36,797 nucleotides of DNA from Bacteroidota bacterium (GTDB lineage Bacteria > Bacteroidota > Bacteroidia > Bacteroidales > VadinHA17), in assembly GCA_003250475.1 (NCBI GenBank), contig QKGI01000093.1, forward strand, positions 1 to 36,797, in the 5' to 3' direction. How positions within the stretch are numbered: the stretch's first letter is position 1; each line of letters starts with the position of its first letter. The position numbers and the translations under genes are program-made. This document shows positions 1-24,801 of this stretch, one piece after another. A model generated the notes under the pieces. That model was not told where the DNA came from. It saw only the letters and a program-made list of their open reading frames with translations, and made no database searches.

Positions 1-1403
1 ATGATCTGATTCCTGAAATGCCGGTCAGTGTCAATGAGGTTGTTAACAGTCTTGCAGGCATGCAGTACGGTGGCATGGTCCTTTCCTCCTATAGATGAGC
101 CTATGCTTGCCAGTGAGGCTTTGGTAAGGCTTTTTGAGAAGTACATCGAGACCTGTCTTGCCTGTACTATCTCGCGCTTGCGTGTTTTGCCCTGCATCTG
201 GTCAACAGGTATCTTATAATATTCGCATACCACCTTCTGGATGTAATCAATCGTTATCTCCCTGCGCTGGGTGTTAACGAGCCTGTCAACCATCTGCCTG
301 GCCAGCTCAAGTGTAACCTCCTTGCGGTTAAGGGTAGACTGGGCATAGAGCGAAATAAGGCCTGATTCAAGCTCCCTGATATTCGATGATATGTTCTCTG
401 CCAGGAACTCAAAGATATCGTCAGGCAGCTCAATACCATCGTTATATGCCTTTTTCCTGAGTATGGCCAGCCTGGTCTCAAAGTCGGGCTTCTGAAGATC
501 TGCCAGCAGTCCCCATTTGAAACGCGAAAGAAGCCGCTGCTCCATTCCCTGCAGCTCTACCGGGGGTTTGTCACAGGTAAGGATCAGTTGCTTTCCGGAC
601 TGGTGAAGATGGTTGAAAATATGGAAGAAGGTATCCTGTGTCTTCTCTTTACCGGCAAACTCATGAACGTCATCAATAATGAGCACGTCAATCATCTGGT
701 AAAAGTGAAGGAAGTCATTCTTGTTGTTGTTCCTTATCGACTCAACGAACTGTGTCTGAAACTTGTTCGCATTTACATATAGAACGGTCTTGTCAGGGAA
801 CTTTTCCTTAACGAGGATACCAATAGCCTGCACCAGGTGAGTCTTTCCAAGCCCCGAATCACCGTATATCATCAGGGGGTTGAAAGCAGTACCGCCGGGA
901 TTGTTTCCAACGGCTATACCGGCAGAACGGGCAAGCCTGTTGCATTCACCCTCCACAAAGTTTGCAAACGTATAATCCGGATTCAGCCTCGGGTCAAAAT
1001 GAAGCTTCTTAATGCCCGGGATGATAAACGGGTTTCTTATGGCAGGCTGGGTAGCCTCAAAAGGAACCTGCATCGGTTTATTCTGAAGGTCAGCCTTATT
1101 CCTTGAGGGATACCTGACCGTGTAGGGTCTTCCATTGGTATAACCGGAGTTCTCCATAATTATGTTGTACTCCAGCTTGGCATCGTTGCCTATCTCACGC
1201 CTCAGAGTTTTTCGCAGAATGTCTATATACTGCTCTTCGAGATATTCGTAAAAGAAGGGACTGGGAACCTGAATGGTAAGAATATTTTTTTCGAGCCTGA
1301 GAGGAACAATAGGCTCGAACCATGTCTTGAAACTGGCCGAAGGAATAATATCACGAATTATTTCGAGACAGTTATTCCATACCTCATCATGTGACTTGTT
1401 CAT
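1..1403 (-). CDS. dnaA: Chromosomal replication initiator DnaA (3' end cut by window edge)
   Basis: DnaA binds DnaA boxes at the origin and melts it to start replication. My minus-strand translation from the ATG at 1403 is open for 467 codons to the window edge. It shows the domain I motif KTWFEPI, a linker, then the AAA+ domain with Walker A GDSGLGKT (near 870-845) and Walker B LIIDDVHEF, followed by the domain IV helix-turn-helix signature GGKDHATVLHACKTV (near 95-50). Only the last few residues are missing, since the signature normally lies close to the C-terminus. The gene sits downstream of the MCE gene on the same strand, but a 322-base AT-rich gap suggests it has its own promoter. Identity is secure. 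Confidence 0.97.
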   Translation of the reverse strand, partial: MNKSHDEVWNNCLEIIRDIIPSASFKTWFEPIVPLRLEKNILTIQVPSPFFYEYLEEQYIDILRKTLRREIGNDAKLEYNIIMENSGYTNGRPYTVRYPSRNKADLQNKPMQVPFEATQPAIRNPFIIPGIKKLHFDPRLNPDYTFANFVEGECNRLARSAGIAVGNNPGGTAFNPLMIYGDSGLGKTHLVQAIGILVKEKFPDKTVLYVNANKFQTQFVESIRNNNKNDFLHFYQMIDVLIIDDVHEFAGKEKTQDTFFHIFNHLHQSGKQLILTCDKPPVELQGMEQRLLSRFKWGLLADLQKPDFETRLAILRKKAYNDGIELPDDIFEFLAENISSNIRELESGLISLYAQSTLNRKEVTLELARQMVDRLVNTQRREITIDYIQKVVCEYYKIPVDQMQGKTRKREIVQARQVSMYFSKSLTKASLASIGSSIGGKDHATVLHACKTVNNLIDTDRHFRNQI

Positions 1404-1725
1404 TCAGATTGAAATTAAAAAATCGCTTTTTTTTCTGGGGCGGAAACCCGTGACAATATTTGTAAAAAAAAAGGTAAAAAAAAAAATTTTTTTCTCTTGA
1501 CTTTTACAATTATTCTTTACTGTTATGAGCATCAGGTTATTAAAAAGTCAATTATTGGTCAAATTTTATAACACACAGAATATCAGCCTTATATAGTGAA
1601 TAATATGTATGTCAGTATCTTATAAAAATGAGGACTTTCAGGTCTTTATCCCGGAGGTGGCTGTGTCACACCATAAGACAGCTGTAAATACCTGACAGTT
1701 TATTGTTTAGTATTATTCTAACAAT
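1404..1725. other. AT-rich intergenic region upstream of dnaA
   Basis: These 322 bases contain no convincing gene. The striking part is 1464-1493: nine A, then GGT, then eleven A followed by seven T, a strongly bent A/T tract 61-90 bases before the dnaA start. A loose promoter-like match, TAAAATTTG on the minus strand (1560-1568), has one base more between TA and TTTG than the usual TAnnTTTG. I saw no cluster of TTATCCACA-type DnaA boxes; the nearest strings (TTATCCCGG near 1647, TTATAACAC near 1566) are poor. It could hold the dnaA promoter and an upstream A-tract activator; an origin role is not supported. Confidence 0.55.
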
Positions 1726-2667
1726 TCATTCGGCCTTTTTGCCAAAAAGGGAGAAGTGTACATATCTTTTTGGATTTTCCTTCATATTCCTGAGTAAAAG
1801 ATCAAGGTCGTACAGGGTATTGTTAAGGTTTGTATAGAGACTGTCATTTGTAATGAATTTACCTGCCGAACCATCTCCCTTGCTCATGCTTTTCACAATT
1901 TCGTCAAGGCTGGCAAGGGAAGAGCGCAGTGAAGTCAGGGTGGAGTCAATACCTGCAGAGGCGACAGCGTCAGAAATCTGCTCAAGGTTTTTCAGGGTTG
2001 AATCGATGGTTGTACTGTTGGCTGACAGCATAGCCGTAAAGACCTTGATATCTTCTATGGCACCGATGAGATCATCCTTTTTACTGCCGGATATTTCACT
2101 GAGGGAAGCAGTAACGTCATTAACATTTGCCATGGTCGATTTTAAGTTGCCGGTCATCTGGGGGGTGAAGACATCATTTAGAGCCGAGATGACCGAATCA
2201 AGCTTCAGAATAATATCGGCTATATTATCTTCCAGGGGTGACAGTGCCTGACCGAGCTTATCGATGATGGACGTTGCCACATATCCCTGAATAGTATCAT
2301 GGTCGTGACACATCTCGTTACTCTCACCCATACGAAGGATGATCTTCATTCCCGCTATTAGTGTGGCGGTGGTGATCTCAGCCCTGGTATCCCTGGGAAT
2401 ATTGAAGTGCTTATCTACAGACAGCGAAACGAGGATTCGTCCTGACCCGTCATTTATCAGCTTTACATCCTGCACCACGCCGGCCTGGTATCCGTTTATC
2501 TCAACGGGATTCGACTCTGTCAGCCCGGCAATGTTGTCATATACAATGTGGTATGTGTCGGTACTTGTAAAGAGGGCTGTTCCCTTAAGAAACTGGTATA
2601 AAAGGATGAATGCAATTATAGTAATCAGCGCTACGCCTCCTACCTTTACCTCGTGAGATATCTTCAT
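1726..2667 (-). CDS. MCE/MlaD-family lipid transport protein
   Basis: A 313-residue single-pass membrane protein of the MCE (MlaD) family, which forms periplasmic rings that carry phospholipids between inner and outer membranes. After a short cytoplasmic tail (MKISHEVKVGG) comes one membrane segment at about residues 8-28 and then the MCE domain: the stretch around YHIVYDNIAGL, VEINGYQAGVV and the TLIAGMKIIL region. The last half is a long predicted helical or coiled-coil region rich in Ser, Leu and Asp, as in other MCE proteins with a C-terminal helix. The ATG at 2667 is preferred over a TTG at 2697 because the latter lies inside the amidase gene. It starts 7 bases after the amidase stop, so the two are probably co-transcribed. 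No MlaE or MlaF partner is in this window. Confidence 0.88.
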   Translation of the reverse strand: MKISHEVKVGGVALITIIAFILLYQFLKGTALFTSTDTYHIVYDNIAGLTESNPVEINGYQAGVVQDVKLINDGSGRILVSLSVDKHFNIPRDTRAEITTATLIAGMKIILRMGESNEMCHDHDTIQGYVATSIIDKLGQALSPLEDNIADIILKLDSVISALNDVFTPQMTGNLKSTMANVNDVTASLSEISGSKKDDLIGAIEDIKVFTAMLSANSTTIDSTLKNLEQISDAVASAGIDSTLTSLRSSLASLDEIVKSMSKGDGSAGKFITNDSLYTNLNNTLYDLDLLLRNMKENPKRYVHFSLFGKKAE

Positions 2668-2674
2668 GCTAATG

Positions 2675-4027
2675 TTATTTTCTTTTTTTTGTGTCAATGG
2701 CCTCCCTCAGAGGCATTATCCTTCCGTTCCTGACAGCAATCACAAATGCATCAGGAAACCTGGAAGTAAGAGTACGCCTGTAACGCAGCGCATCGTCGTA
2801 TACCCTGAAGCTGCCGGCAGCGTATTTTACTCTTTCACCTGCATCTATTTTTGTCACCTTATCAATACCGTCAAGCAGGCCCGGAGCAACCTCCCTGTTC
2901 TTTGGCATCGCAGATATCTGGACCATGAACAATATATCATCTCCCTCTTTTGCAGTTGCTTCCGCGGTGCTCCGGCTGACCACAGCATTATCCTGCGGTA
3001 CGGCAGGAGAGGAGGTCACCTGCCGGTCTCCTGAGGGATTATCTTTAACGGGAGTGGGGGAAGCCTGCACAGGCTCTTTTTCAGGCTGTACGGCTGCCGG
3101 GGCTTTCGCCTGGCTGCCGGCTAATGTGCCGTTGCCGGTGCTTCCCGTTGTCGGGCTGTTTTCGCTGGCTGCCGGTTTTTGTATGTTTGTTGCCACCGCA
3201 TTCCCGTTCCTGATCCCCGACCTGCTGTCGATAGACTCCTTGTAATCCCTGAATGCCCTGAAGATTGCCGATGCAAGGTAATCCTGCCCCTGGTCTGACA
3301 TGAGAAACTTCTCTTCCTCAGAATTCGAGAGATAGCCCAGCTCTACCAGGACCGACGGCATCGTCGCCCGCCACAAAACAATGAACCCTGCCTGTCTTAC
3401 ACCCCTGTCTTTCCTGCCTACCCTCTCCTTAAATTGTCTCTGTATCAGCGAGGCAAACTCAGTGCTTTGTTTAAGGTAGGTATTCTGCATCAGTGAGAAG
3501 ATTATGAATGACTCAACCGAGTTAGGGTCATAACCTTCATATTTGGTCTCATAGTTCTCCTCAAAGGTGATCACGGAGTTCTCCTTCATGGCAACCCGCA
3601 GGTTCGCCTCGTCCATCGTCTGGCCCAGGACATAAGTCTCGGCACCGGTAACCCGTTGGTCGGACCACCAGTTGGAATGTATAGAAATGAATATGTCGGC
3701 TTTGTTCTTGTTCGCCACATTTGCCCTCTCCTCCAGTCCGGGGTAAGTATCATCATCACGGGTATAAATAACCTTCACATCTTTAAGATATTCACTTATA
3801 TACTTCCCCGTTTTGAGTGCTACAGCAAGATTGATGTTCTTCTCCTTTGCCTTTGCCCCATGGGTACCCGGATCTCTTCCGCCATGACCTGCATCAATCA
3901 CTACGACCCATTCCCTGGCAGTGGTCAGCGGTTGAGACCATGCACGGAGTGGCATGGTAATTGAGGCCATCATTACGACAGCTGTCAGAATATCTCTTAA
4001 CCCTCTTTTTTTGGTCCTCTGCCGCAT
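2675..4027 (-). CDS. N-acetylmuramoyl-L-alanine amidase (Amidase_3) with SPOR-like C-terminus
   Basis: A zinc amidase that cuts the amide bond between MurNAc and the stem peptide of peptidoglycan, acting in the periplasm, commonly at cell separation. From the ATG at 4027 the protein has 450 residues: a signal peptide (about 1-31, ending near RAWSQ), then the catalytic domain with zinc ligands His48 (DAGHGG), Glu62 (KEKNINL) and His117 (SIHSNWW) and catalytic Glu229 (VLVELGYLSN). A Pro/Ala/Ser-rich linker (roughly 305-365) leads to a C-terminal module resembling SPOR, a domain that binds denuded glycan strands. A longer frame to 4123 would run through the lptD start and the promoter boxes, so it is rejected. 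The MCE gene follows 7 bases downstream, and lptD is divergent. Confidence 0.93.
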   Translation of the reverse strand: MRQRTKKRGLRDILTAVVMMASITMPLRAWSQPLTTAREWVVVIDAGHGGRDPGTHGAKAKEKNINLAVALKTGKYISEYLKDVKVIYTRDDDTYPGLEERANVANKNKADIFISIHSNWWSDQRVTGAETYVLGQTMDEANLRVAMKENSVITFEENYETKYEGYDPNSVESFIIFSLMQNTYLKQSTEFASLIQRQFKERVGRKDRGVRQAGFIVLWRATMPSVLVELGYLSNSEEEKFLMSDQGQDYLASAIFRAFRDYKESIDSRSGIRNGNAVATNIQKPAASENSPTTGSTGNGTLAGSQAKAPAAVQPEKEPVQASPTPVKDNPSGDRQVTSSPAVPQDNAVVSRSTAEATAKEGDDILFMVQISAMPKNREVAPGLLDGIDKVTKIDAGERVKYAAGSFRVYDDALRYRRTLTSRFPDAFVIAVRNGRIMPLREAIDTKKRK

Positions 4028-4063: not shown

Positions 4064-6850
4064 ATGGCGAATATGCTCAACAACTACGCAAAAATAGCAT
4101 TTAACTTGCATTTTCACGCACAAAGATTGTTTGTGTCAATTTTCATGCTGCTACTCTTTCATGCATCTCTGACCGCCCAGGAAGCAGTAATGCCTGATAC
4201 TACAGCCGTTGTCCCGGGGGACTCGCTTGATCTTAAGGATGCCGGACACATTGATATTACTGCCGGCATCGGAGATACTATTTTTGCTGATGAGCTGATA
4301 CCTTTACCCGATACGACAGGGGGCAAGGGCCCGCTGACCATCTCTCACGATGCTGTTGATGAACAGATAGTATATAATGCTGAGGGGTACATGAAGACGG
4401 ACCTCAGGACAAAGAAAGTATACCTTGTACAGAGTGCCAAAGTTACCTATGGGAGCATCGAGCTCACTGCCGATTCTATTGTCCTCGATATGGAGACCGG
4501 CTCGGTTTATGCCACAGGCAGGCCGGATTCTACAGGGATTATGCAGGGATTGCCTGTATATAAAGATGGTTCCGAGGAGTTTGAGTCGAAAGAGCTAACC
4601 TATAACTTCAAGTCGAAGAAGGGGGTTATCCGTAATGTCACCACCGAGCAGGAGGGTGGCTTTTTGCAGAGCCTGACGACAAAACGTCATGAGGACGGCA
4701 CTCTCCATGTCAACCGCAGTAAGTTTACCACCTGCGATGCAGAGGAGCCCCATTTCTACCTGGCGCTTCCCAGGGCAAAGGTTTACCCCGGGGAAAAGAT
4801 AGTCTCCGGTCCGGCCTATATGGTCATGGCTGACATTCCTCTGCCACTGATACTTCCTTTCGGATTTTTCCCCGTGCAGCAAAGAAGGGCCTCAGGTATA
4901 GTCATGCCCAAGTACGGACAGGAAGCCCGCAGGGGCTATTTCCTGTCAAACGGAGGCTACTATTTCGCCCTCAGCGATTACTTCGATCTTAAGCTTACAG
5001 GGACATTGTATACAAATGGCACCTGGCTGGCTGATGCAGCAACCACCTATAAGGTCAGGTACAGGTTCTCCGGTTCATTCGGGTTCAGCTATGCCAATAA
5101 CGTAACCAGCTACAAGGGGCTGCCGGACTACGGCACGTCGACCAACTACCGTATCAGCTGGTCACACTCGCAGGATTCAAAGGCCAGTCCCGGGTCACGC
5201 TTCTCGGCAAGCGTTAACATGAGCTCCAGCGGTTATGATAAGAATAACAGTTATGATGTCTCAGACCATGTTACCACTACCCGGCAGTCAAGCGTAAGTT
5301 ACTCAAAATCATGGGCTGGAACACCGTTCAGCTTCTCAACAAGCCTTAACCAGTCGCAGAACGTGCAGAACAAGACGATGATGCTTAACCTGCCCAAGGC
5401 CAGCTTCACGGTATCGCGTATCTACCCGCTCAAGCCAAAGAAGCTTGTTGGCAAATCAAAATGGTATCATGACCTGACGACACAGTATACCGCCTCACTA
5501 GACAACAAGATAGACACCTACGACAGTCTCTTCTTCACCAGTGCAATGTGGAAAAGCATGAAGAACGGGTTTAAGCATGAGATACCTTTGAGTCTGCAGA
5601 TCAGGCCATTCAATAACTTCTCCATCTCTCCCTCATTGCGTTACACGGGTGTTCTTTACACACAGAAGATAGAGAAGAGATGGGACCCCGGTTACTATGA
5701 TGAGGACAAGGGTCAGGTTATACCGTCGGTAGTGAATGATACCATCAGGGGTTTTACCTACGGACAGGCACTGGTGCCAACGATAAGCGCCTCGTTCAAT
5801 CCATCGTTGTACGGTACATTTCAGTTTACAAAGAAAGGAGCGAGGGTTGAGTCTATAAGACATGTCATGAAGCCGTCGGTAGGGTTCTCCTACTCGCCTG
5901 AGGCTGACCAGCTGGCAAGTGATATGTACAGAACCGTTCAGTACGACACCCTGGGTCACACGCGCGAGTACTCCATATACGAAGGGTCTATCTATGGCAC
6001 TCCCTCGACCGGCACCCGCTCCGGTACGGTAAACTTCAGCCTGTCAAACATTGTCGAGGCAAAGGTATACTCAAGGAATGATACTACAGGCAAACCACGG
6101 AAGATCAAGCTCATAGAGAACCTCTCTCTCAATACCTCCTATAATATCTTTTCAGACACCCTTAACTGGTCACCTGTGAGTATGTCGTTCCGTACCACCC
6201 TGGCCCAGAACATTAATATCCAGGCAAGCAGCAGCTTCAACCTGTATGGCCTCACCGATGCCGGAACAGTAAACAGGCATTTTGCCATAACGCAGGGGCA
6301 GGGTCTTGCCAGGATGACGAGCTTAAACATGAGTCTTGACATGGATCTGGGTCGACTACTGGGGGGCAAGGATAAGGACAGGCAGCAACCTGCCGGAGCC
6401 TCCGGCCAGCAGTCAGGAGGCAGGTCGCCGGGTGACCAGCGAGGCAGTTCAGATACAGGCCCCTCCGGGAACCTGCCCCTGGCAGACAACAAACTTGATG
6501 AGTTCGGATATGCCAGGTTTGACGTGCCCTGGTCGCTCCGGATGGCATATAACTTCAGCTATAGCAAGCCGGGTCTGACCTCAAACATTTCACAGACTCT
6601 CACCATGTCAGGTGATGTAAGGCTCACCTCAAAGATGGCCATCAACTACAGCACCGGCTATGACTTCAAACAGAATGAGATAACCATGACCAGGGTCGGG
6701 ATATCGCGTGACCTTCATTGCTGGGAGATGAGCTTCTCATGGATACCGACAGGTTACATGAAGAGCTGGAATTTCACCATAAGGGCCAAGGCAAGCATGC
6801 TGCAGGATCTGAAATATGAAAGACGTAAGGACTACCATGAGAATTACTAA
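4064..6850 (+). CDS. lptD: LptD/OstA-like LPS-assembly outer-membrane protein
   Basis: The outer-membrane beta-barrel that inserts lipopolysaccharide into the outer leaflet; here the large Bacteroidota form (928 residues). An N-terminal signal peptide ends near residue 39 (SLTAQ). The OstA/LptA-like jelly-roll follows at about 95-260 (VYNAEGYMKTDL, KVTYGSIELTADSIVLDM, YNFKSKKGVIRNV). After DIPLPLILPFGFFP the barrel strands run to the C-terminus. A Gly/Ser/Gln-rich stretch at about 765-805 looks like a surface loop. An in-frame ATG at 4073 is an equally plausible start given the promoter box at 4049-4056. It is divergent from the amidase gene and followed 19 bases later by ridA. Confidence 0.9.
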   Translation: MANMLNNYAKIAFNLHFHAQRLFVSIFMLLLFHASLTAQEAVMPDTTAVVPGDSLDLKDAGHIDITAGIGDTIFADELIPLPDTTGGKGPLTISHDAVDEQIVYNAEGYMKTDLRTKKVYLVQSAKVTYGSIELTADSIVLDMETGSVYATGRPDSTGIMQGLPVYKDGSEEFESKELTYNFKSKKGVIRNVTTEQEGGFLQSLTTKRHEDGTLHVNRSKFTTCDAEEPHFYLALPRAKVYPGEKIVSGPAYMVMADIPLPLILPFGFFPVQQRRASGIVMPKYGQEARRGYFLSNGGYYFALSDYFDLKLTGTLYTNGTWLADAATTYKVRYRFSGSFGFSYANNVTSYKGLPDYGTSTNYRISWSHSQDSKASPGSRFSASVNMSSSGYDKNNSYDVSDHVTTTRQSSVSYSKSWAGTPFSFSTSLNQSQNVQNKTMMLNLPKASFTVSRIYPLKPKKLVGKSKWYHDLTTQYTASLDNKIDTYDSLFFTSAMWKSMKNGFKHEIPLSLQIRPFNNFSISPSLRYTGVLYTQKIEKRWDPGYYDEDKGQVIPSVVNDTIRGFTYGQALVPTISASFNPSLYGTFQFTKKGARVESIRHVMKPSVGFSYSPEADQLASDMYRTVQYDTLGHTREYSIYEGSIYGTPSTGTRSGTVNFSLSNIVEAKVYSRNDTTGKPRKIKLIENLSLNTSYNIFSDTLNWSPVSMSFRTTLAQNINIQASSSFNLYGLTDAGTVNRHFAITQGQGLARMTSLNMSLDMDLGRLLGGKDKDRQQPAGASGQQSGGRSPGDQRGSSDTGPSGNLPLADNKLDEFGYARFDVPWSLRMAYNFSYSKPGLTSNISQTLTMSGDVRLTSKMAINYSTGYDFKQNEITMTRVGISRDLHCWEMSFSWIPTGYMKSWNFTIRAKASMLQDLKYERRKDYHENY
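4089..4096 (-). promoter_or_regulatory. Bacteroidota -7 promoter box for the amidase-MCE operon
   Basis: The plus strand reads CAAAAATA, so the minus strand reads TATTTTTG, matching TAnnTTTG. It lies inside the first codons of lptD and leaves a leader of roughly 55-60 bases before the amidase ATG at 4027. A TTTG on the minus strand at 4124-4121 is a possible -33 element, although the 24-base spacing is longer than usual. Confidence 0.5.
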
Positions 6851-7365: not shown

Positions 7366-7812
7366 TTATTCGGCGACAACCTCAAAGTCGATGTCTACCC
7401 TGACATCACGGTGAAGCTTGATAACGGCCTTGTAGTTTCCTATCTCCTTAATGGCATCTTCTCCAAGAATGATATTCTTGCGGTCAATCTCAAATCCTTT
7501 TTCATTGAGAGCTTCAGCAAGCTGAATGGTGTTGACTGATCCGAAGATCTTTCCTGCCGAGCTTACCTTGGCACCGATGACCAGCTTGATATCTGCGAGT
7601 TTCTGTGCAAGCTTTTCAGCTTCCTGTCTGATCTTCTCTTCCTTGTGAGCCCTCTGCTTCAGGTTTTCATTATGCATCTTGAGCACAGAGTCGGAAGCCT
7701 GAACGGCATATCCCTTGGGAATAAGGTAGTTTCTTGCATATCCGGTCTTCACGGTAATAACGTCATTCTTCAGACCGAGTTTTTCCATATCCTGCATGAG
7801 AATTATCTTCAT
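7366..7812 (-). CDS. rplI: Ribosomal protein bL9
   Basis: Large-subunit protein that contacts 23S rRNA near the L1 stalk. At 148 residues it is normal length. The N-terminal RNA-binding domain has the classic start MKIILMQDMEKLG and the motif GYARNYLIPKGYA, followed by a long connecting helix (about 45-75) and the C-terminal domain, including GKIFGSVNTIQLAEAL. A strong Shine-Dalgarno sequence (AGGAGG) precedes the ATG at 7812. It is the last gene of rpsF-rpsR-rplI, 13 bases after rpsR. Confidence 0.98.
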   Translation of the reverse strand: MKIILMQDMEKLGLKNDVITVKTGYARNYLIPKGYAVQASDSVLKMHNENLKQRAHKEEKIRQEAEKLAQKLADIKLVIGAKVSSAGKIFGSVNTIQLAEALNEKGFEIDRKNIILGEDAIKEIGNYKAVIKLHRDVRVDIDFEVVAE

Positions 7813-7825
7813 ATCTCTTCCTCCT

Positions 7826-8095
7826 TTACTTTAAAAGATCAGCAACGTAGGGAAGCATGGCAAGGTGACGGGCACGCTTGATTGCTTTGGCCACTCTTCT
7901 CTGGTATTTGAGAGATGTGCCAGTTATACGACGGGGAAGGATTTTGCCCTGTTCGTTGAGAAACTTCTTGAGGAACTCGGGATCCTTGTAATCGATGTAC
8001 TTGATCTTGTTCTTCTTGAACCTGCAGTATTTCTTCTTCTTGATCTCAACTGTAGGAGGGGTAAGATACCTGATCTCTGAATTGTTCTGTGCCAT
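7826..8095 (-). CDS. rpsR: Ribosomal protein bS18
   Basis: Small-subunit platform protein that pairs with bS6 on 16S rRNA. At 89 residues it shows the family motifs [38 protein letters not shown] and [13 protein letters not shown]. The Shine-Dalgarno-like GGGAGG lies inside the end of rpsF, with only 2 bases between the genes, so translation is probably coupled. A single Cys is kept in the YCRF motif. Confidence 0.98.
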
Positions 8096-8097
8096 GT

Positions 8098-8451
8098 TTA
8101 TTCCTCCCTGACTTTTTCGGTTTCTTTCATCTTTCTTTTCTTCTCAGCATACTCTACAGCATACTTGTCCATACGGAAGGTCAGGAAACGGATGATTCTT
8201 TCATCCCTCCTGTACTGCACTTCTAACTTGTCAATCAACTCACCCTGCCCCCTGAACTCAATCAGATAATAAAAGCCGGTCGACTTTTTCTGGATGGGAT
8301 AAGCGAGTTTCTTCAGACCCCAGTTCTCTTCATGAATGATCTCACCTTCATTGTCAGTGATGATCTTCTTGAATTTCTGAACCGCTTCCTTCATCTGATT
8401 CTCAGACAAAACGGGAGTTGCAATGAAAACGGTTTCGTACTGATTCAACAT
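8098..8451 (-). CDS. rpsF: Ribosomal protein bS6
   Basis: Small-subunit platform protein forming a heterodimer with bS18. The 117-residue protein starts [17 protein letters not shown] and contains the family segment [22 protein letters not shown] and the basic stretch [12 protein letters not shown], with a Lys/Glu-rich tail. It leads the three-gene operon. Its -7 promoter box is at 8491-8498, back to back with the dnaX promoter. No ssb or priB gene lies between rpsF and rpsR. Confidence 0.98.
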
Positions 8452-8490
8452 CTCTTTTTAGTTTATAATTAGTGTTAATAAATCGGGTTG

Positions 8491-8498
8491 CAAAAGTA
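8491..8498 (-). promoter_or_regulatory. Bacteroidota -7 promoter box for rpsF-rpsR-rplI
   Basis: The plus strand CAAAAGTA reads TACTTTTG on the minus strand, matching TAnnTTTG. It lies 39 bases before the rpsF ATG. No -33 TTTG is found at the expected spacing; the upstream DNA is an A/T tract. Confidence 0.55.
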
Positions 8499-8541
8499 AA
8501 ACAATAAATCTTAAAAAAAAATATTCGCAAGACTATTTGAC

Positions 8542-8549
8542 TATATTTG
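8542..8549 (+). promoter_or_regulatory. Bacteroidota -7 promoter box for dnaX
   Basis: TATATTTG is an exact TAnnTTTG match 35 bases before the ATG at 8585. Because an upstream TTG at 8537 overlaps this box, the box argues against a start there. Confidence 0.6.
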
Positions 8550-8584
8550 TGAATGATAAACCAGAAAGACTGCTGAAACCCGAT

Positions 8585-10300
8585 ATGGATAACTTCATTG
8601 TCTCTGCCCGCAAATACAGGCCTGCCACTTTTGACATGGTTGTGGGACAGGATACCATCACAACTACTTTAAAGAACGCAATTAAGAACAACTTTCTTGC
8701 ACAGGCCTATCTTTTTTGTGGCCCCCGTGGTGTGGGCAAGACCACCTGTGCACGGATCTTTGCCAAGACCATTAACTGTTCAGAACCCGGTCCGGATGGT
8801 GAAGCATGCGATAAATGCGAATCCTGCACATCATTCAATTCACAGGCATCGTTTAATATTCATGAGCTTGACGCTGCCTCGAACAACAGTGTTGACGACA
8901 TACGTAACCTGACAGACCAGGTCAGGATACCGCCCCAGATCGGGAGGTTCAGTGTCTATATCATTGATGAGGTGCACATGCTTTCCACACAGGCCTTCAA
9001 CGCGTTCCTCAAGACGCTTGAAGAGCCGCCGTCGCATGCCATCTTCATCCTGGCGACAACCGAGAAACATAAGATCATACCCACGATCCTCTCACGGTGC
9101 CAGATCTTTGATTTTAACCGCATTAACGTTGACGATATAGTTCAGCGTCTTAGCTGGGTGGCCGGCAATGAGGGAGTCACTGCTGAACACGAGGCGCTTC
9201 ATGTTATTGCCACCAAGGCTGACGGTGCCATGCGTGACGCCCTGTCCATTTTTGACCAGATAGTGAGCTTCAGCGGTAAGAATATCACCTATGCCGACGT
9301 TATTGCCAACCTCAATGTGCTCGATTATGAGTATTTCTTTCGTATAACGGCATCCGCCATGCAGGGCGACGTAACCTCGGTACTCTTAACGTTCAACGAG
9401 ATCTTAATCAAGGGATTTGACGGTTACAACTTCATGGCAGGACTTAATAACCACCTCCGTGATCTCCTTGTCAGCCGCGACGAAGCCACGGTGAAACTCC
9501 TTGAGACCTCCCCGTCTATCAGGCAACGTTACAGGGAGCAGGCCGTTGATGCGCCTCTCTCATTTATTTACCAGGCACTGGAGATCGGTTCACAGTGCAT
9601 GCTTAACTTCCGCAGCAGCAAGAACCAGCGCCTCCACGTTGAGCTCGCCCTGCTCCGTATGTGTAACCTCTCTTCCGTGAGCCCGGCTGAGGAGGTAAAA
9701 AAAAAAGCTGAGCAAAAGCCTCTAGAGGAAGAGAAAGAGATTGAAATATCTCCCCCGGCACGTGAAACTGTTGCCCCGCCGGCCGACACGCCTAAACCGG
9801 CTGCCACCCAGTATAAGAGTGCTGACAGCCCTGATGATCCAAAGAAGATAAGCATCAGAAGTGCTATCTCAGGAAACAGGACGGCCGGGAACACCGTCAG
9901 CGAACCCATTCCTGAAACAGATCAGCCGGTTGCACACGAATTCACTGCCGATGAGCTTAATGAGGCGTGGAGTACCTTTGCAGCAGGGGTGAAAGAGGAG
10001 AGTCCAAGGATCTCCGTTACCCTGTCTGCCGTTTCTCCCGAGCTGCTGCCGGATAAGACAATTATCCTGAAGCTGGATAACTCGGCCCTCAAAGAGGCGT
10101 TTGACCATAACTACAGGGCAAGACTGGAGAGTCATCTCCGTAATACACTGCAAAATACCGGGATAAAGCTACAGACATCAGTGGAGGCCACTGAGAGAGG
10201 AGAGATACTCTATTCGCCGGAACAGAAATTCAATCATCTTGTCTCGAAAAACCCTTCGCTGAAGGACCTGAAGAAGACCTTTAACCTCGACTTTGAGTAG
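8585..10300 (+). CDS. dnaX: DNA polymerase III subunit gamma/tau
   Basis: The clamp-loader ATPase that, as tau, also ties polymerase cores to the helicase. From the ATG at 8585 it has 571 residues. Walker A GPRGVGKTT is at 46-54. Zinc ligands are Cys65, Cys75, Cys78 and Cys81. The DExx box is IIDEVHML, sensor 1 is ILATTEKHKI, and SRCQIF follows. After domain III (ending near 365) comes a Lys/Glu/Pro-rich linker (about 370-460) and a C-terminal tau-type domain. The junction is encoded by a run of ten A (9697-9706) that may produce a short gamma form (see the separate entry). A longer frame from TTG 8537 is rejected because it overlaps the promoter box. It is divergent from rpsF. Confidence 0.96.
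   Translation: MDNFIVSARKYRPATFDMVVGQDTITTTLKNAIKNNFLAQAYLFCGPRGVGKTTCARIFAKTINCSEPGPDGEACDKCESCTSFNSQASFNIHELDAASNNSVDDIRNLTDQVRIPPQIGRFSVYIIDEVHMLSTQAFNAFLKTLEEPPSHAIFILATTEKHKIIPTILSRCQIFDFNRINVDDIVQRLSWVAGNEGVTAEHEALHVIATKADGAMRDALSIFDQIVSFSGKNITYADVIANLNVLDYEYFFRITASAMQGDVTSVLLTFNEILIKGFDGYNFMAGLNNHLRDLLVSRDEATVKLLETSPSIRQRYREQAVDAPLSFIYQALEIGSQCMLNFRSSKNQRLHVELALLRMCNLSSVSPAEEVKKKAEQKPLEEEKEIEISPPARETVAPPADTPKPAATQYKSADSPDDPKKISIRSAISGNRTAGNTVSEPIPETDQPVAHEFTADELNEAWSTFAAGVKEESPRISVTLSAVSPELLPDKTIILKLDNSALKEAFDHNYRARLESHLRNTLQNTGIKLQTSVEATERGEILYSPEQKFNHLVSKNPSLKDLKKTFNLDFE
9690..9725 (+). promoter_or_regulatory. Candidate slippage/frameshift site in dnaX
   Basis: A perfect Shine-Dalgarno AGGAGG (9690-9695) and T are followed by ten A (9697-9706) and G. 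In frame this reads GTA AAA AAA AAA GCT (residues 371-375). In the -1 frame the next codons are AGC TGA (stop 9709-9711); in the +1 frame a TAG comes after five codons (9723-9725). Either slip would end the protein right after the ATPase/domain III part, giving a gamma-like product of about 375 residues. The palindrome CCTCTAGAGG lies just downstream (9719-9728). Confidence 0.65.
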
Positions 10301-19186: not shown

Positions 19187-20290
19187 TCAACTCCATACAC
19201 CCGGTATCTCCCTGCCGCAGGTACACTTACCGTTGCTGAGGGTGTTGGCAACTATCCTGTAACCGCTCCTGTCTATAACTTTCTCCTTGCAGTAGGGGCA
19301 AATGGTATCCTCAACCCCCGCCCCGGGAAGGTTTCCAAGATATACATATTTCAAACCTTCGCTATGCGCAATTGCGACAGCCTTCTGAAGTATGCCTGCA
19401 GGGGTGGGCGGGAGGTGCTCAAGCTTGTACTGGGGCTGGAAACGGCTGAAATGCAGCGGTGTGTCGGTAAAGCCATTTTCAGCGAGCCACCCGCACATCT
19501 GTCTTATCTCATCCGGCTTGTCGGTCCAGCCCGGGACAACCAGGTTGGTGATTTCCAGCCAGACACCCTCGTCGAGGTATGTCTTCAGGGTGTCGAGCAC
19601 AGGTTGAAGCTTACCGCCGTTGAGCTTCAGGTAGGTGCTGTCGGTGAACGACTTGAGATCGATATTTGCACCATCAATATAGCGGCATAGCTGCCGGAGT
19701 GGTTCTCTGTTAATATAGCCGTTGGAGACCATGATATTCTTTATGCCTTCTTCCCGGGCCAGCCTGGAGGTCTCATAGACATATTCATAAAAGGTAACCG
19801 GTTCGGAATAGGTATAGGCTATGGACCTGCAGCCCGCGGCTGCAGCCTGCGACACCACTGCCTCAGGTGGAAGATTATAGTTCCTTGTTTTATCCGGGGA
19901 TGTCTGTGAGATAGTCCAGTTCTGGCAGTTAAGACATGCCAGGTTACATCCTGCTGTGGCAATGGAAAAGGCTGATGATCCCGGGAGAAAGTGGTAAAGC
20001 GGCTTCTTCTCCACAGGGTCAATATTAACAGCACAGGGGTTTCCGAATGCCATGGTGTAAAGCTTTGACTTTCTGACGATCCTGTTGCGGCAGTCGCTTA
20101 ACTCTCCCTCTTTTAGTGTACATTCGTTTGGGCAGATACGGCAAACCACACCTCTCGCACTATCCTCCTGGAACATGGCAAGCCTCTCATGCGGGTCCGG
20201 CTTTGCGGCATCAACAGCAAAAGGAGAGATAAAGCCGGCAGCCATGGCAAGTGAACCCTGCCTGGCAAATGTCCTTCTTGATATCTTCAT
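19187..20290 (-). CDS. amrS: AmmeMemoRadiSam radical SAM enzyme with Tat-like leader
   Basis: A 367-residue radical SAM protein of the three-part AmmeMemoRadiSam system, whose relatives include glycyl-radical enzyme activases. The iron-sulfur cysteines are Cys115, Cys119 and Cys122 (AGCNLACLNCQNW). A Cys cluster precedes them (Cys50, Cys53, Cys57, Cys67), and the C-terminus has a rubredoxin-like pattern, CPYC ... CTCG. The N-terminus SRRTFARQG, followed by a hydrophobic stretch ending near AVDAA, looks like a twin-arginine signal, so a folded enzyme might be exported, which is unusual for this class. ATG 20290, with AAGGA upstream, is preferred over TTG 20305. It is the third gene of the amrBA-membrane protein-amrS run. 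The substrate is unknown. Confidence 0.9.
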   Translation of the reverse strand: MKISRRTFARQGSLAMAAGFISPFAVDAAKPDPHERLAMFQEDSARGVVCRICPNECTLKEGELSDCRNRIVRKSKLYTMAFGNPCAVNIDPVEKKPLYHFLPGSSAFSIATAGCNLACLNCQNWTISQTSPDKTRNYNLPPEAVVSQAAAAGCRSIAYTYSEPVTFYEYVYETSRLAREEGIKNIMVSNGYINREPLRQLCRYIDGANIDLKSFTDSTYLKLNGGKLQPVLDTLKTYLDEGVWLEITNLVVPGWTDKPDEIRQMCGWLAENGFTDTPLHFSRFQPQYKLEHLPPTPAGILQKAVAIAHSEGLKYVYLGNLPGAGVEDTICPYCKEKVIDRSGYRIVANTLSNGKCTCGREIPGVWS

Positions 20291-20337
20291 TTTCCTTTTT
20301 TCCAACTAAACCTCAATAGTGTTATCAAAGCGTAAAA

Positions 20338-22767
20338 CTAATGCCTAATCGTCACCGATACAACTATTCCGGACGCCAAAATAACAGCTGCCAGGATAAA
20401 ACTTGCATTGGCCGTTCCGGCCAACGGCACAAGCAGCGTGGCAACGGTAAGGTACCCGAGCGCTGAACCGGCAAGGTCTGCGGCATAGACTATCCCTGTT
20501 GTACTGCTGCCTGACGTACGGGCCGTGAGTATCCGGTATATCACTCCGGTGAAAAACCCTGCAAGCGGCAGGGCAATAAAAATAAATGCCAGAACCGGAC
20601 CGGGAGCCGAGGTCACGAGAGTCGGCGTCATGAGACCTGTCAGGGTAAAGAGAGCTGTAATCAACAAAGCAGGTATCTTCAGATCTGTAATAGCTGCTTT
20701 CCCCCGCCAGGAGGCTCCTGCCGCCAGTCCAGCCATCAGAAGAGACAGGATGACGGCCGACAGAATGTAGATGTTTCCAACAGCCATCTGCAGTATAAAT
20801 ATCATTATCATGCCAAAACCGGCGAGTCCGGCTGATGCTGTAAACATCATAAGACTGCCCCGGGTAGCAAAGATGAACGGTATTAGCACCAGCAACGCAA
20901 GGAGTGTTATAATGCCGCCTTTTACACCCATTTTCTCAAGAGAAAGGATATTTGCAAAAAGTGATGATACAGGCCTTGAGGCTGTATTCATGCCTGAACT
21001 GCTGTCGGTCTGAGACAACACCTGGTCTCTCCTGGCCCTGATTTCGTTGTCATCCAGATAGTCGCTGTTGACATAGTTACTTGCCAGGGACTGCTCTTCA
21101 GCAAGCCTTACTACCCCTGAGGTCAGCGGCTTATCAGAAGCAATGGCATAAAGGAGTGTGCCCGGAATAATCGTTACATGGCTGAACACGCCGGTCATGG
21201 CATTGTACAACGGCGAAAATCCTTTTCTGTAACTCTCAGGTGAATAGTTGTACCATGGCATAGGGGTACACATAAAGATGCCGTTCGCAGAAAGATGATC
21301 CTTAATAGTTCTGAAATATTCTGCAGTATAGAATCTGCTGACTGACAGGGTGGAAGGTGGCGGTATCAGCTGTAGCACGGCGTCATACATCTCCCCGCTT
21401 TCTCTCATGAAGGTGACAGGGTCAGTTCTCTCCACCCTGACCCTCATTGTGCCGCAGACCGTATCATGCGCTCCTTCTGCCTTGAGTAGTCCGGGGTCAG
21501 GCTCAAGATAACTTAGCTCCCGGATATCGTACTTGCTTAATTCCGCAAGATGTCTTTTCAGTCCGCCCGATATAAGGATTACCTTATCATATCCCTCTCT
21601 TTGAAGCATGGCGTAGTGAATATTCTCCTCGGCGGTGATCAGGTCGTTCATGAAGAAAAGCGGCCTGTGATCGTAGAATACGGTATTCTCTCCGCCATAA
21701 ACACCCATAGAGATATTTCCATATGGGGTGTCAATGCTTTTTTCAACCTTCACCCCACGCAGGAGCATTGATCTGAAAGCTTTATCAGGATGGATAACCA
21801 CCGATAGCACGGTAACAGGTATGAGAATTACCAGGGCTGCTCTTCCAACCACGGGCGGATAATCCATAAGCCAGGTAACAATGATTGTTGAGGTCAGGAG
21901 GATGAGTATATAAAGCTGATAGTTGGGGATACTGACAGTCACGGTCAGGGCTGTCAGGAGGCCGGCAGTAACTGATCCTGCCGTCTCGGTTCCGAAACTG
22001 CTCCCCGGCGTGGAAGCACCCGTTTTTTGCCTCATTGATGAGAAACGAACAAAAACCAGTGATGATATAAAGGTCACCGGGGCTATGCTGACAGCAACGA
22101 TTACAAGCATCTGCTGAAAGGAGGGGGTCTCGCCTGGACTGAGTATGAGAGAGTTCATTACCACGAACATGACGGGAGACAGAGCAGTACCTGAAATGAG
22201 TGTCCATATCATCCTCCGAATGTTAATTATCTGTGATCTGCTGCCTGCGAGGGCTCCGGCAGCGGCGATTATCAGCCATAACCAGAGAAAGAGTCCTGCA
22301 CCTGCCTCAGTGCCTCCTGCAAGGATGGCAGCTTCACGCATCATAATAAACTGGGAGGATGAGCTCAGGAAGCCTGTGAGGAAAAGCAGGGGCACCATAT
22401 TTTTCTGTGGAACCGGAGTTGCGCCGCGGGCTGCGTGCCCGGGACCGTCATTGAGGCCGTGCCCGCCTGATCTTAAGTAATAGCCGGTGTGCCATGTAAG
22501 GTGAATGATAGCGGCAAATGCCATCGCGATGCCCATCTCCACATGCCAGGGAAGAAGGCTTCCTGCCAGGGGAATATCCCATTTGTAGTTTATTTTAAGT
22601 GCCAGGAAGAGCCCTATCAGGGCGGTAGCTGTGAATGAACCCAGCAGTATCCAGTTCCAGAACCTGCGATGTGAGTTCCTGCCTGTGAAACCTGTGGAGC
22701 CAAGGTACAGGGAGAAGAGATAGACAAACAGCGTGGCCACTCCTATAGGCAGGACATGATAGGTCAT
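20338..22767 (-). CDS. Polytopic membrane protein with spermidine-synthase-like domain
   Basis: An 809-residue integral membrane protein. Residues 1-100 hold three helices with His75, His89 and His93 (spacing H-x13-H-x3-H), resembling di-heme b-type cytochrome or DUF4405-like helices (inference). Residues about 125-330 hold several more helices. A soluble SpeE-like domain follows (about 341-560) with the SAM-fold strand VILISGGLKRHL (396-407) and the acidic LEPDP (421-425), and the C-terminus has a second helical bundle. The catalytic DSTDP-type motif of aminopropyltransferases is replaced by QLIPPPSTLSVSRFYT, so polyamine synthesis is unlikely. It starts 8 bases after amrBA behind a strong AGGAGG and lies 47 bases before amrS, which implies a joint function. 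The function is unknown. Confidence 0.85.
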   Translation of the reverse strand: MTYHVLPIGVATLFVYLFSLYLGSTGFTGRNSHRRFWNWILLGSFTATALIGLFLALKINYKWDIPLAGSLLPWHVEMGIAMAFAAIIHLTWHTGYYLRSGGHGLNDGPGHAARGATPVPQKNMVPLLFLTGFLSSSSQFIMMREAAILAGGTEAGAGLFLWLWLIIAAAGALAGSRSQIINIRRMIWTLISGTALSPVMFVVMNSLILSPGETPSFQQMLVIVAVSIAPVTFISSLVFVRFSSMRQKTGASTPGSSFGTETAGSVTAGLLTALTVTVSIPNYQLYILILLTSTIIVTWLMDYPPVVGRAALVILIPVTVLSVVIHPDKAFRSMLLRGVKVEKSIDTPYGNISMGVYGGENTVFYDHRPLFFMNDLITAEENIHYAMLQREGYDKVILISGGLKRHLAELSKYDIRELSYLEPDPGLLKAEGAHDTVCGTMRVRVERTDPVTFMRESGEMYDAVLQLIPPPSTLSVSRFYTAEYFRTIKDHLSANGIFMCTPMPWYNYSPESYRKGFSPLYNAMTGVFSHVTIIPGTLLYAIASDKPLTSGVVRLAEEQSLASNYVNSDYLDDNEIRARRDQVLSQTDSSSGMNTASRPVSSLFANILSLEKMGVKGGIITLLALLVLIPFIFATRGSLMMFTASAGLAGFGMIMIFILQMAVGNIYILSAVILSLLMAGLAAGASWRGKAAITDLKIPALLITALFTLTGLMTPTLVTSAPGPVLAFIFIALPLAGFFTGVIYRILTARTSGSSTTGIVYAADLAGSALGYLTVATLLVPLAGTANASFILAAVILASGIVVSVTIRH

Positions 22768-22775
22768 TGCTCCTC

Positions 22776-24281
22776 CTATTCACCGAAGACATAGGCCTCG
22801 TAGACAAAGATCTCCGTATCCTTGTCCTTCCAGCCGTCCCATCCGATACCTGCTTTGTCACGGGCGCAGTATCCAAGGAATTGTTCAGTATTCCAGCCTC
22901 TCTCAACAGCCACCTGGGGCAGCAGAGTTCCTGACCTGAAGCCTTTCTTAAGATAAATCCCGTGTTTCCCTGTCTCTATCTCACTTATGCTGTTAATCTT
23001 CTTCATCGGGCCCAGCACTGAGATCTCAATATGTATAGACGGATACTCTGATTTTGAGAGTACAGGGAACCTCGGGTCGCCGAAAGCAGCTTCGACGGCC
23101 ATGTTTCCGATTACTTTCCACAGAGGGTCAGGTGATGTGAACCGGCCTATGCAACCACGCAGATCCCCCTCCTTTGTCAGTGTCACAAATGCGCCGAGGG
23201 GTTCTTTCAGGCGGGGGGTGAGTTTTGCCTGAGGTACCGGCCCGGGTTTGAGACCGTTCAGATGGGCAGTGATGGCCTCCCTGGCTATTGTTAACAGCGT
23301 CGCCTTTTCACCTGCGGTAAGAGTGAAGGCTTCCGAAGCATCAGCAGCCGGCTGTTCCTGTTGTTTCATCTCCGCCACAATAGCATTGTATCCGACAACC
23401 TCATCCCTGGCACCTCGTGGTGAATCTCCTGAATTGGAATATTCTACGTTGCGCATGACGATGCCCTCACTCTTTTCAGCGAGGTAGAGCAGCACGAGTC
23501 CTGCCGGCCAGCCGCACATGGCTGTGGCAAGATTTTCAGTGCCGGACGACTCTATCTTTCTTATTGTCTTCAGGAACCCTTCGGGATCACCATTAACTAT
23601 GGCATCACTGCTAAGCCTGTCGACACGGCGGGCATTATCATAGGAGGGATAATGCGAGAAGTCGCTGCTGATGACAAACAGGTTCCGGCTGTTGAACCAG
23701 GGTTGCAGACCTGAGGCAACAGCCTTGATAATGCTTGTATTGTGTGTACCGATCAGCACAGGGACAATCTTGGGAACATTTTTGAAATGATACTGGATGA
23801 ATGGCAGCTCTACCTCGAGTGAGTGTTCGGGAATATGAGCCACATCCTTCTCTATGAACCACTTGTTAGTCGATTTCAGCTTCTCCCCAAGCTCTTTGTT
23901 TACCTTCAGTGTGCCGAGAGGCGTCACCAGGTCACCTGATGTATAGACTGCCGCTCCTTCGAAAGCGTACCTGTGACTCACCCCGATAAGGAATATATTT
24001 TCATAACTGGCATCTGCCGGCACGGCGGCAAATCCGGCAGCGGCAGTGTGGCCGGAGAAAACATATCCGGCATGAGGAACAATGATGGCTCTTACTGACA
24101 CCCCGGATCCGGCTTTTTTACATGAGGCAAAGTAACCGGCAAGCTCACTTCTGAGTCTGTCGGCCCCGGCCGGATAGAAACTGCCGGCCACAACAGGCTG
24201 CCTGTCACGCCCGGCTCCTTGTCCGAATATGTTCATAAGCGGCATAATTAACATTATCAGGATGAGACAAACCGTTTTCAT
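22776..24281 (-). CDS. amrB: AmmeMemoRadiSam protein B-A fusion (Memo + AMMECR1) with signal peptide
   Basis: A 501-residue fusion. Residues 1-21 form a Sec-type signal peptide (hydrophobic, ending near NIFGQ). Residues about 28-305 form the Memo domain, related to LigB-type dioxygenases, which keeps the metal triad His70 (VPHAGY), His103 (GVSHR) and Cys256 (AMCGW) matching the His-His-Cys site of human MEMO1. After a Gln/Ala-rich linker, residues about 318-500 form the AMMECR1 domain with its hallmark LRGCIG (374-379). Memo and AMMECR1 are often separate genes; here they are fused and probably periplasmic or membrane-anchored. It starts 61 bases after siaC and is followed by the membrane protein and amrS. 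The reaction is unknown. Confidence 0.92.
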   Translation of the reverse strand: MKTVCLILIMLIMPLMNIFGQGAGRDRQPVVAGSFYPAGADRLRSELAGYFASCKKAGSGVSVRAIIVPHAGYVFSGHTAAAGFAAVPADASYENIFLIGVSHRYAFEGAAVYTSGDLVTPLGTLKVNKELGEKLKSTNKWFIEKDVAHIPEHSLEVELPFIQYHFKNVPKIVPVLIGTHNTSIIKAVASGLQPWFNSRNLFVISSDFSHYPSYDNARRVDRLSSDAIVNGDPEGFLKTIRKIESSGTENLATAMCGWPAGLVLLYLAEKSEGIVMRNVEYSNSGDSPRGARDEVVGYNAIVAEMKQQEQPAADASEAFTLTAGEKATLLTIAREAITAHLNGLKPGPVPQAKLTPRLKEPLGAFVTLTKEGDLRGCIGRFTSPDPLWKVIGNMAVEAAFGDPRFPVLSKSEYPSIHIEISVLGPMKKINSISEIETGKHGIYLKKGFRSGTLLPQVAVERGWNTEQFLGYCARDKAGIGWDGWKDKDTEIFVYEAYVFGE

Positions 24282-24342: not shown

Positions 24343-24801
24343 TCAGATAAGGACGATATTTTCCTTCAGGGTATTGCCGTCTTCGTCGACGCCATAGAGC
24401 CTTATGCCGACACTGCATGTGGCATCAGCCGTGACATCAAGAAACGGGGAGAGAGATTCTCTCACATCTTCCTCACCCATTGAGTCATATTCCTCTATGT
24501 CAAAGTAGAGATGGACAAAAAGAATATGATCATTCTTTTTAATCTTGGTGAGCACCTTCAATATCTTCCCCATCCAGATCACCGATGAAGTATTGAAGTA
24601 ATCGACATTGAATTTCAGGTTTGTACTCTCTGCGGGGTTTTTTGCATACTCGGAAGCCCACTTATACAGAGGTTCAAAAAAACCTGAGGCGTTCTCCGGC
24701 AAAGATTTGCCTGTAAACGTTAAATTACCTGATGCAGCGGCAAAACTAACCTGCGGTGTTTTAGATGTTGCATCAATTCGAATATCCTGTAATTTTACCA
24801 T
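24343..24801 (-). CDS. siaC: SiaC-family regulatory phosphoprotein (DUF1987)
   Basis: A 152-residue cytoplasmic protein of the SiaC family. In Pseudomonas, SiaC is phosphorylated by the kinase SiaB, dephosphorylated by SiaA, and binds a diguanylate cyclase when unphosphorylated. Family features seen are the Thr/Ser-rich start IDATSKTPQVSF, the SLPENASGFFEPLYKW segment and the conserved FNTSSVIWMGKIL motif, with a long helix after it. No siaA, siaB or GGDEF gene is in this window, so its partners must lie elsewhere. It is the first gene of a minus-strand run that continues with amrBA after 61 bases and is divergent from argS. Confidence 0.88.
   Translation of the reverse strand: MVKLQDIRIDATSKTPQVSFAAASGNLTFTGKSLPENASGFFEPLYKWASEYAKNPAESTNLKFNVDYFNTSSVIWMGKILKVLTKIKKNDHILFVHLYFDIEEYDSMGEEDVRESLSPFLDVTADATCSVGIRLYGVDEDGNTLKENIVLI

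Follow-up and report, generated by a model that had tools for sequence, protein, structure and literature searches.

Can a radical S-adenosylmethionine (SAM) enzyme work outside the cytoplasm? The question is raised by contig QKGI01000093.1 of the Bacteroidota assembly GCA_003250475.1 (VadinHA17), a stretch of 36,797 nucleotides (the window) that is contig 68 of a 3.47-Mb assembly of 168 contigs, 97.8% complete. Three of its genes encode a Memo-AMMECR1 fusion (AmrBA), a membrane protein (M) and the radical SAM enzyme of the AmmeMemoRadiSam system (AmrS). Radical SAM enzymes are normally regarded as working inside the cell, and their requirements (SAM, an electron of low potential and a cluster that is sensitive to oxygen) are, as far as we know, all cytoplasmic goods. 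Sequence comparison suggests, with a probability that we put at about 0.6, that in this cassette the AmmeMemoRadiSam system takes an extracytoplasmic form, in which AmrBA would be exported by the general secretory (Sec) pathway and AmrS by the twin-arginine translocation (Tat) pathway, with M conveying reducing equivalents. All positions are coordinates of the whole window, and the cassette genes all lie on the minus strand.

Components and leaders of the cassette

The three parts of the AmmeMemoRadiSam system score over their curated cut-offs. AmrBA matches TIGR04336 at 226 bits (cut-off 26) and TIGR04335 at 170 bits (cut-off 99), with PF01875 at 5.5e-54 for the Memo domain and PF01871 at 1.9e-51 for the AMMECR1 domain, and AmrS matches TIGR04337 at 344 bits (cut-off 220). 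The gene for the Memo and AMMECR1 parts and that for the radical SAM enzyme belong to a single operon, with M between them. A first-pass annotation made from the letters alone had described this arrangement of three adjacent same-strand genes, and its positions, spacing and domain calls are all correct. M starts 8 bases past the AmrBA stop codon, preceded by AGGAGG, the strong Shine-Dalgarno that it had noted. The gap between M and AmrS is 47 bases if AmrS starts at ATG 20290; an alternative start, TTG 20305, is favoured by relatives.

The radical SAM and Memo metal-ligand residues are intact. The CxxxCxxC cysteines of AmrS (C115, C119, C122) are present in 43/43 aligned rows, exported and leaderless alike, two further cysteine sets (C50, C53, C57, C67 and C331, C334, C356, C358) are invariant in these 43 rows, and the closest solved structure by sequence is the pyruvate formate-lyase activating enzyme (3c8f, 1.2e-18). 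In AmrBA, His70, His103 and Cys256 align with H49, H81 and C244 of MEMO1, which the accessible text of PMC11081632 gives as its iron ligands, and each is retained in 86/88 Memo rows, which bears out the earlier view of them as conserved residues of metal chemistry. The Memo domain thus shares its His, His, Cys metal ligands with human MEMO1 (7kq8, 3bcz) and the LigB-type extradiol dioxygenases, but differs from both in being apparently exported and in its fusion to AMMECR1.

Both AmrBA and AmrS carry N-terminal leaders. The Sec-type signal predicted for AmrBA, MKTVCLILIMLIMPLMNIFGQ, is present by rule and by eye. The AmrS leader, SRRTFARQGSLAMAAGFISPFAVDAA, reads SRRTF...AVDAA in frame, with a twin-arginine motif, a hydrophobic stretch and, by eye, a small-residue cleavage site, and among the 15 nearest relatives (L033-L047) [ST]RRxF recurs at the same place in every AmrS that can be read, 14/14 (that of L046 is interrupted by the contig end). 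The genome has TatC (230.8 bits), as expected for a Tat substrate. Our home-made leader rule calls a Tat-type twin-arginine leader at the first ATG of 34/936 other long open reading frames (ORFs), a background that is somewhat too low since several start codons were allowed for AmrS and the first ATG only elsewhere. A leader arising by chance was rejected on the conservation in 14/14 relatives, this low background and the co-variation described below.

Co-occurrence of leaders, exported partners and M

AmrS leaders, signal-bearing Memo proteins and M go together across the loci surveyed. We classed 184 AmrS by the leader rule and left out seven: three at a contig edge (L046, L053, L064), one with N in its assembly (L063), one with a frameshifted AmrS (L091) and, judging from the lists, two of <290 residues (L093, L279). 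Dereplication of the other 177 at 82% identity left 149, a set biased toward the window's relatives, in which L113-L132 were chosen as short AmrS and L133-L152 as long AmrS, so that leader status there was selected and not sampled. By eye, L065, L075, L246 and L294 were relabelled as leader-bearing and L084 and L094 as split leaders, and the Memo proteins of L051, L060, L072, L101 and L248 as signal-like; L071 was kept as leaderless and not exported. The 149 comprise 34 Tat-type leaders with R-R, 29 with K-R and one with T-R, three Sec-type leaders, one Sec-signal fusion, two split leaders and 79 AmrS with none. M is in the fetched locus of 49/68 leader-bearing and 2/2 split AmrS, compared with 2/79 leaderless ones (Fisher p 9e-21, kinship ignored), and the Memo N-terminus is signal-like in 45/45 cases beside leader-bearing AmrS (five by eye) as against 5/20 beside leaderless ones. 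The first-pass annotation had suggested a co-occurrence survey of this kind.

Two phylum draws, both less biased than the main set, gave the same direction. Among 42 AmrS from 40 Desulfobacterota regions (about every fourth listed row plus two), M accompanies 4/15 leader-bearing and 0/27 leaderless AmrS (L246 relabelled), and in 20 Bacteroidota regions hand-picked from the listed rows it accompanies 2/2 and 0/18, respectively (L294 relabelled). Independently of gene linkage, nine Desulfobacterota genomes with a Tat-type AmrS and no AMMECR1 in the fetched locus each have one AMMECR1 gene elsewhere, and in 9/9 this protein or the adjoining Memo protein is signal-like (six by rule, three by eye); the separate AMMECR1 of G284 is itself without a signal.

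The exported branch looks old from its distribution. Exported forms span Bacteroidota, Thermodesulfobacteriota, Planctomycetota, Acidobacteriota, Calditrichota, Aminicenantes, Fidelibacterota and others, and a quick tree search of AmrS, with the leader relabels included and the split class excluded, gives about seven leader changes and 19 changes of M. Because the leader changes are few and the phylum spread is wide, the trait appears to be deep and not often regained. In L075 (~1315-3813), one open frame of ~830 residues starts with a Sec signal and fuses Memo and AMMECR1 to AmrS; its genome (G072) gave no TatC match. Being in a single frame, the three parts would therefore lie on one side of the membrane. 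Among tandem AmrS pairs, L137 and L261 have one Tat-type leader and one copy with none, and both copies of L273 are Tat-type. In L084 (~660-915), L098 (~5041-5297) and L094 (~330-560), a small signal-like ORF in another frame overlaps or meets the start of a leaderless AmrS, and its end resembles an AmrS N-terminus, which may reflect a split leader or recoding; no GGGAAAA heptamer was present in the L094 DNA examined.

Cassettes without leaders and M, which the first-pass annotation had named as a refuting case, do exist, but the two are missing together, as a separate type, which fits export of the window's type. The other type is leaderless and nearly always without M, whereas in the window type AmrBA has a Sec leader and AmrS a Tat leader, with M encoded between the two. 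The exported cassette with M thus appears, from sequence, to be a variant of the known AmmeMemoRadiSam system (TIGR04335, TIGR04336, TIGR04337), distinct from the leaderless type. Memo-Ammecr1 systems and a related radical SAM domain are mentioned in the accessible text of PMC7159879. A phrase search of the freely readable literature found no paper on exported radical SAM enzymes, with an earlier description possible in subscription papers, and the term AmmeMemoRadiSam had a single mention in each of five papers.

The leaderless paralogue and TatC

The window's own genome offers an internal control. It encodes a second AmrS of 339 residues (C130:28417-29376, L113), which is leaderless, and in the short-AmrS regions L113-L132 from this genome and its relatives, M is found in 0/20 and a Memo gene, itself leaderless, in 4/20. 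For the L113 AmrS no AMMECR1 of its own was found, and many family relatives likewise have two AmrS and one AMMECR1. Memo-family matches in the genome number two, the window's and one of 64 bits on C127, and M has a single copy. With a single AMMECR1 gene, the genome yielded no AMMECR1 protein other than the apparently exported AmrBA. Across the 36 genomes of the family, its own included, 34 have one AMMECR1 match and two have none, and the 29 best-scoring further AMMECR1 loci, taken from relatives in the family and the order, are all Memo fusions with Sec- or lipoprotein-type N-termini; the lower-scoring matches left out include short unfused frames, such as the sole match of family member G030 (221 residues).

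In the genomes tested, the type of leader follows the presence of TatC, a comparison likewise independent of linkage. No TatC match was found in the three tested genomes with Sec-type or Sec-fused AmrS (L078, L081, L075), and the same search found TatC in 19/20 genomes with Tat-type leaders and in 42/44 other genomes. Of the relatives, 56/60 have TatC. The comparison of Sec-type with Tat-type genomes (Fisher p 0.002) was chosen after the list had been seen and did not include two further loci with Sec-type AmrS, L079 and L087.

The membrane protein M

M combines a transporter-like helix bundle with a SpeE-like domain. The latter matches PF01564 at 1.2e-5 (25.4 bits, cut-off 22.9) and has the SpeE fold together with sequence similarity to 3anx (3.4e-27). 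Its acidic residues E422 and D449 are kept in 34/36 and 33/36 rows, and these features would suit an active aminopropyltransferase making an extracytoplasmic polyamine for the system. However, position 467, which we take to be the site of the SpeE catalytic Asp, is Asp in only 2/36 rows, which sets M apart from SpeE proper, and a second acidic position, 470, has D/E in 11/36. We rejected a working aminopropyltransferase on the lost Asp, and a polyamine-making M is extremely improbable. M also differs from the spermidine synthases 3anx and 1uir in that its domain is predicted to lie on the outer side of the membrane, because one set of loops has a mean of 0.4-3.9 lysine and arginine residues and the other short loops have 0-1.0.

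In a predicted model, the helix bundle has the fold of the major facilitator superfamily (MFS), in a comparison that barely covers residues 1-117. No MFS family matched M in Pfam or NCBIfam up to E 1, so that its MFS-likeness is one of fold alone, with no claim of transport. M differs from MFS transporters such as VMAT2 (8x3k) in having 7+7 helices instead of 12 and an extra N-terminal haem-like module.

Redox modules in M point to electron transfer. Within the N-terminal 118 residues, H33, H75 and H89 are present in 22/22 rows and in 45/45 full-length M having this module; in many other loci M begins about 115 residues later, without it. The module shows weak Pfam similarity to DUF4405 (16/22 members, best 1.7e-4), Ni_hydr_CYTB (7/22) and Ferric_reduct (7/22). 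M of the planctomycete relatives L097 and L102 ends in FMN_bind (1.3e-9 and 1.8e-9) and Fer4_5 (7.8e-19 and 1.7e-16), all over cut-off; both domains exceed cut-off in these two alone, and neither is listed for the window's M. M therefore resembles the extracytosolic flavin and haem electron transfer modules (FMN_bind, Fer4_5 of the NosR-NapH type, DUF4405, ferric reductase), through these fusions in L097 and L102 and through the weakly similar haem-b-like N-terminus in Bacteroidales, but differs from them in its link to AmmeMemoRadiSam. FMN-binding domains move electrons across membranes in other systems, according to accessible parts of the eLife 2021 flavinylation paper (PMC8238504), where a term search of that text found no AMMECR1, spermidine or S-adenosyl. 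Given the haem-like module and the fusions, we infer by analogy that M may be an electron conduit. The first-pass annotation had proposed M as a supplier of electrons, and the invariant membrane histidines and the fusions in two relatives lend this indirect support.

Weighing the extracytoplasmic reading

Location at or outside the inner membrane, as first proposed, is well supported by comparison, through the paired leaders, the leaderless paralogue, the Sec leaders where TatC was not found and the predicted outside domain of M, but several observations, set out in this section, tell against it. Taken whole, the first interpretation is partly supported. The first concern the leaders. The NCBI Tat model TIGR01409 (cut-off 16.7 bits) has no match on the window leader; of eight AmrS leaders, it matched four (L145 at 17.9 bits, over cut-off; L033 at 15.1, L074 at 15.2 and L086 at 13.8) and missed the R-R leaders of the window and L076 and the K-R leaders of L048 and L144. 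The proposed twin-arginine leader therefore stands in its conserved in-frame motif but not in this model. K-R replaces R-R in 29/68 AmrS leaders, the leader rule makes false calls (e.g., L319), G021 (L028) and G233 have Tat-type AmrS with no TatC found, and of the three Sec cases lacking TatC, one has a genome of 2.7 Mb but the others have only 1.2 and 1.0 Mb and may be incomplete. The missing TIGR01409 match and the K-R variants common in sister lineages could mean that the leaders are not working signals and that the cassette is cytoplasmic or faces the cytoplasm. This is very unlikely in view of the co-variation with AmrBA signals, M and TatC and of the lipoprotein-like N-termini of several AmrBA.

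The second group concerns partners. M is missing from the fetched locus of 19/68 leader-bearing AmrS (some loci are cut by contig ends), and across five independent starred pairs differing in leader, M differs the same way in 1.9, the opposite way in 0.1 and not at all in 3.0, which is not significant. The second tandem AmrS of L137, though leaderless, shares a locus with M via its sister copy, and it too lies beside an exported AmrBA. Exported AmrBA also stands beside leaderless AmrS in L085, L097, L102 and L243, and these four exceptions suit a split between compartments, with AmrBA and M outside and AmrS in the cytoplasm, where its leader would at most be an anchor and its product would be passed out by M to AmrBA. 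The transporter fold of M also agrees with such a split, as does the want of any SAM or Fe-S assembly outside that we know of. We nevertheless consider it rather unlikely, as 68/149 AmrS have leaders with a positive start, which predict the enzyme outside, AmrS is fused in the single frame of L075 to the Sec signal, Memo and AMMECR1, and leader type tracks TatC in the tested genomes.

The third group concerns chemistry. Unrelated membrane families also match the N-terminal module of M (UPF0242 in 7/22, CrgA in 7/22 and DUF2231 in 4/22, best 1.8e-4), and the window's own N-terminus stays under the curated cut-off of every Pfam family listed for it, including Ferric_reduct (17.6 bits, cut-off 28) and DUF4405 (10.5, cut-off 26.7). 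To our knowledge, no SAM source or [4Fe-4S] assembly exists outside the cytoplasm, and Sec-type export of AmrS would require cluster insertion there. The want of a known external SAM source, together with the extra conserved cysteine sets, would be explained if exported AmrS were no multi-turnover catalyst, being preloaded for a single event or using its metal sites for binding only. Such a role is improbable, since CxxxCxxC and the other invariant columns are common to exported and leaderless forms, so that the catalytic constraint on AmrS seems unchanged, and M provides SpeE-like and redox modules.

Features and neighbouring genes

Table 1. Cassette features in the window.
Feature	Position	Strand	Basis
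AmrBA, 501 residues, Sec-type signal peptide and fused Memo and AMMECR1 domains	22776..24281	-	Pfam and NCBIfam profiles
AmrBA Sec-type signal peptide codons, MKTVCLILIMLIMPLMNIFGQ	24219..24281	-	by rule and by eye
Memo domain, metal ligands H70, H103, C256	23379..24197	-	profile, alignment
AMMECR1 domain, the only one found in the genome	22785..23291	-	profile search
M, membrane protein, 809 residues; predicted 3+7 transmembrane helices, SpeE-like domain, 7 transmembrane helices	20338..22767	-	
N-terminal haem-b-like module of M, three transmembrane helices, invariant H33, H75, H89	22414..22767	-	
SpeE-like domain of M, without the catalytic Asp and predicted to lie outside the cytoplasm	20977..21789	-	
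AmrS, AmmeMemoRadiSam radical SAM enzyme, 372 residues from TTG or 367 from ATG 20290	19187..20305	-	
AmrS Tat-type leader, SRRTFARQGSLAMAAGFISPFAVDAA	20204..20305	-	motif and relatives; no TIGR01409 match
AmrS CxxxCxxC radical SAM motif, C115, C119, C122 (numbered from ATG 20290)	19925..19948	-	

A SiaC-family gene (PF09345, 3.4e-23; 24343-24801, same strand) lies immediately upstream of AmrBA, and a related ORF is near the cassette in 29/95 compared loci. No substrate gene was found: judged from sequence starts, the neighbours common to many loci look like syntenic genes of close Bacteroidales relatives, and a check by eye of 28 chosen loci gave nothing recurring outside close relatives. By eye, L242 has a NapH-type-looking Fe-S membrane protein gene (5788-6666), followed after about 1.4 kb by a Tat-type AmrS that has no partners nearby. 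In L105, the opposite strand downstream of the cassette has two ORFs with four and two CxxCH haem-c motifs (7444-8819), and the Desulfobacteraceae loci L080 (7165-7698) and L096 (7121-7666) have related small lipoprotein-like ORFs with Cys-rich motifs immediately downstream of AmrS (by eye).

Proposed mechanism

In the extracytoplasmic reading that we prefer, the Sec leader would take AmrBA across the membrane and the Tat leader would take AmrS across in folded form, and the charge bias and the model suggest that MFS-like M would present its SpeE-like, nucleoside-binding domain on that outer side as well. M would carry reducing equivalents across the membrane to AmrS through its N-terminal haem-b-like helices, and in the planctomycete relatives the fused flavin mononucleotide (FMN) and Fe-S modules of M would do so. 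Less surely, the MFS bundle and SpeE-like domain might deliver SAM or remove product; the modelled transporter fold makes M a candidate for the SAM source outside.

A substrate in the envelope, such as a membrane lipid, a quinone or another aromatic, would fit better than a nucleic acid base. Burroughs et al. 2019 reportedly tied Memo to nucleotide-base and isoprenoid modification, and the location outside would favour the latter in the exported branch. A fuller version has M passing electrons by haem or by FMN and Fe-S, exporting SAM through the MFS bundle to the SpeE-like domain, which would serve as its docking site outside, and so completing a radical SAM pathway that is self-contained beyond the cytoplasm and acts on a lipid or quinone of the envelope in several phyla; we consider this doubtful.

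Implications

If the extracytoplasmic reading is true, a conserved exported branch of the family would mean that cells provide SAM, electrons and the cluster outside. The AmmeMemoRadiSam reaction would then be narrowed, with a nucleic acid base unlikely in the exported branch and envelope lipids, quinones and aromatics open to test, and M, which combines MFS, SpeE-like and redox modules, would represent a novel type of membrane partner. The exported cassette could thereby help to show what the widespread AmmeMemoRadiSam system does.

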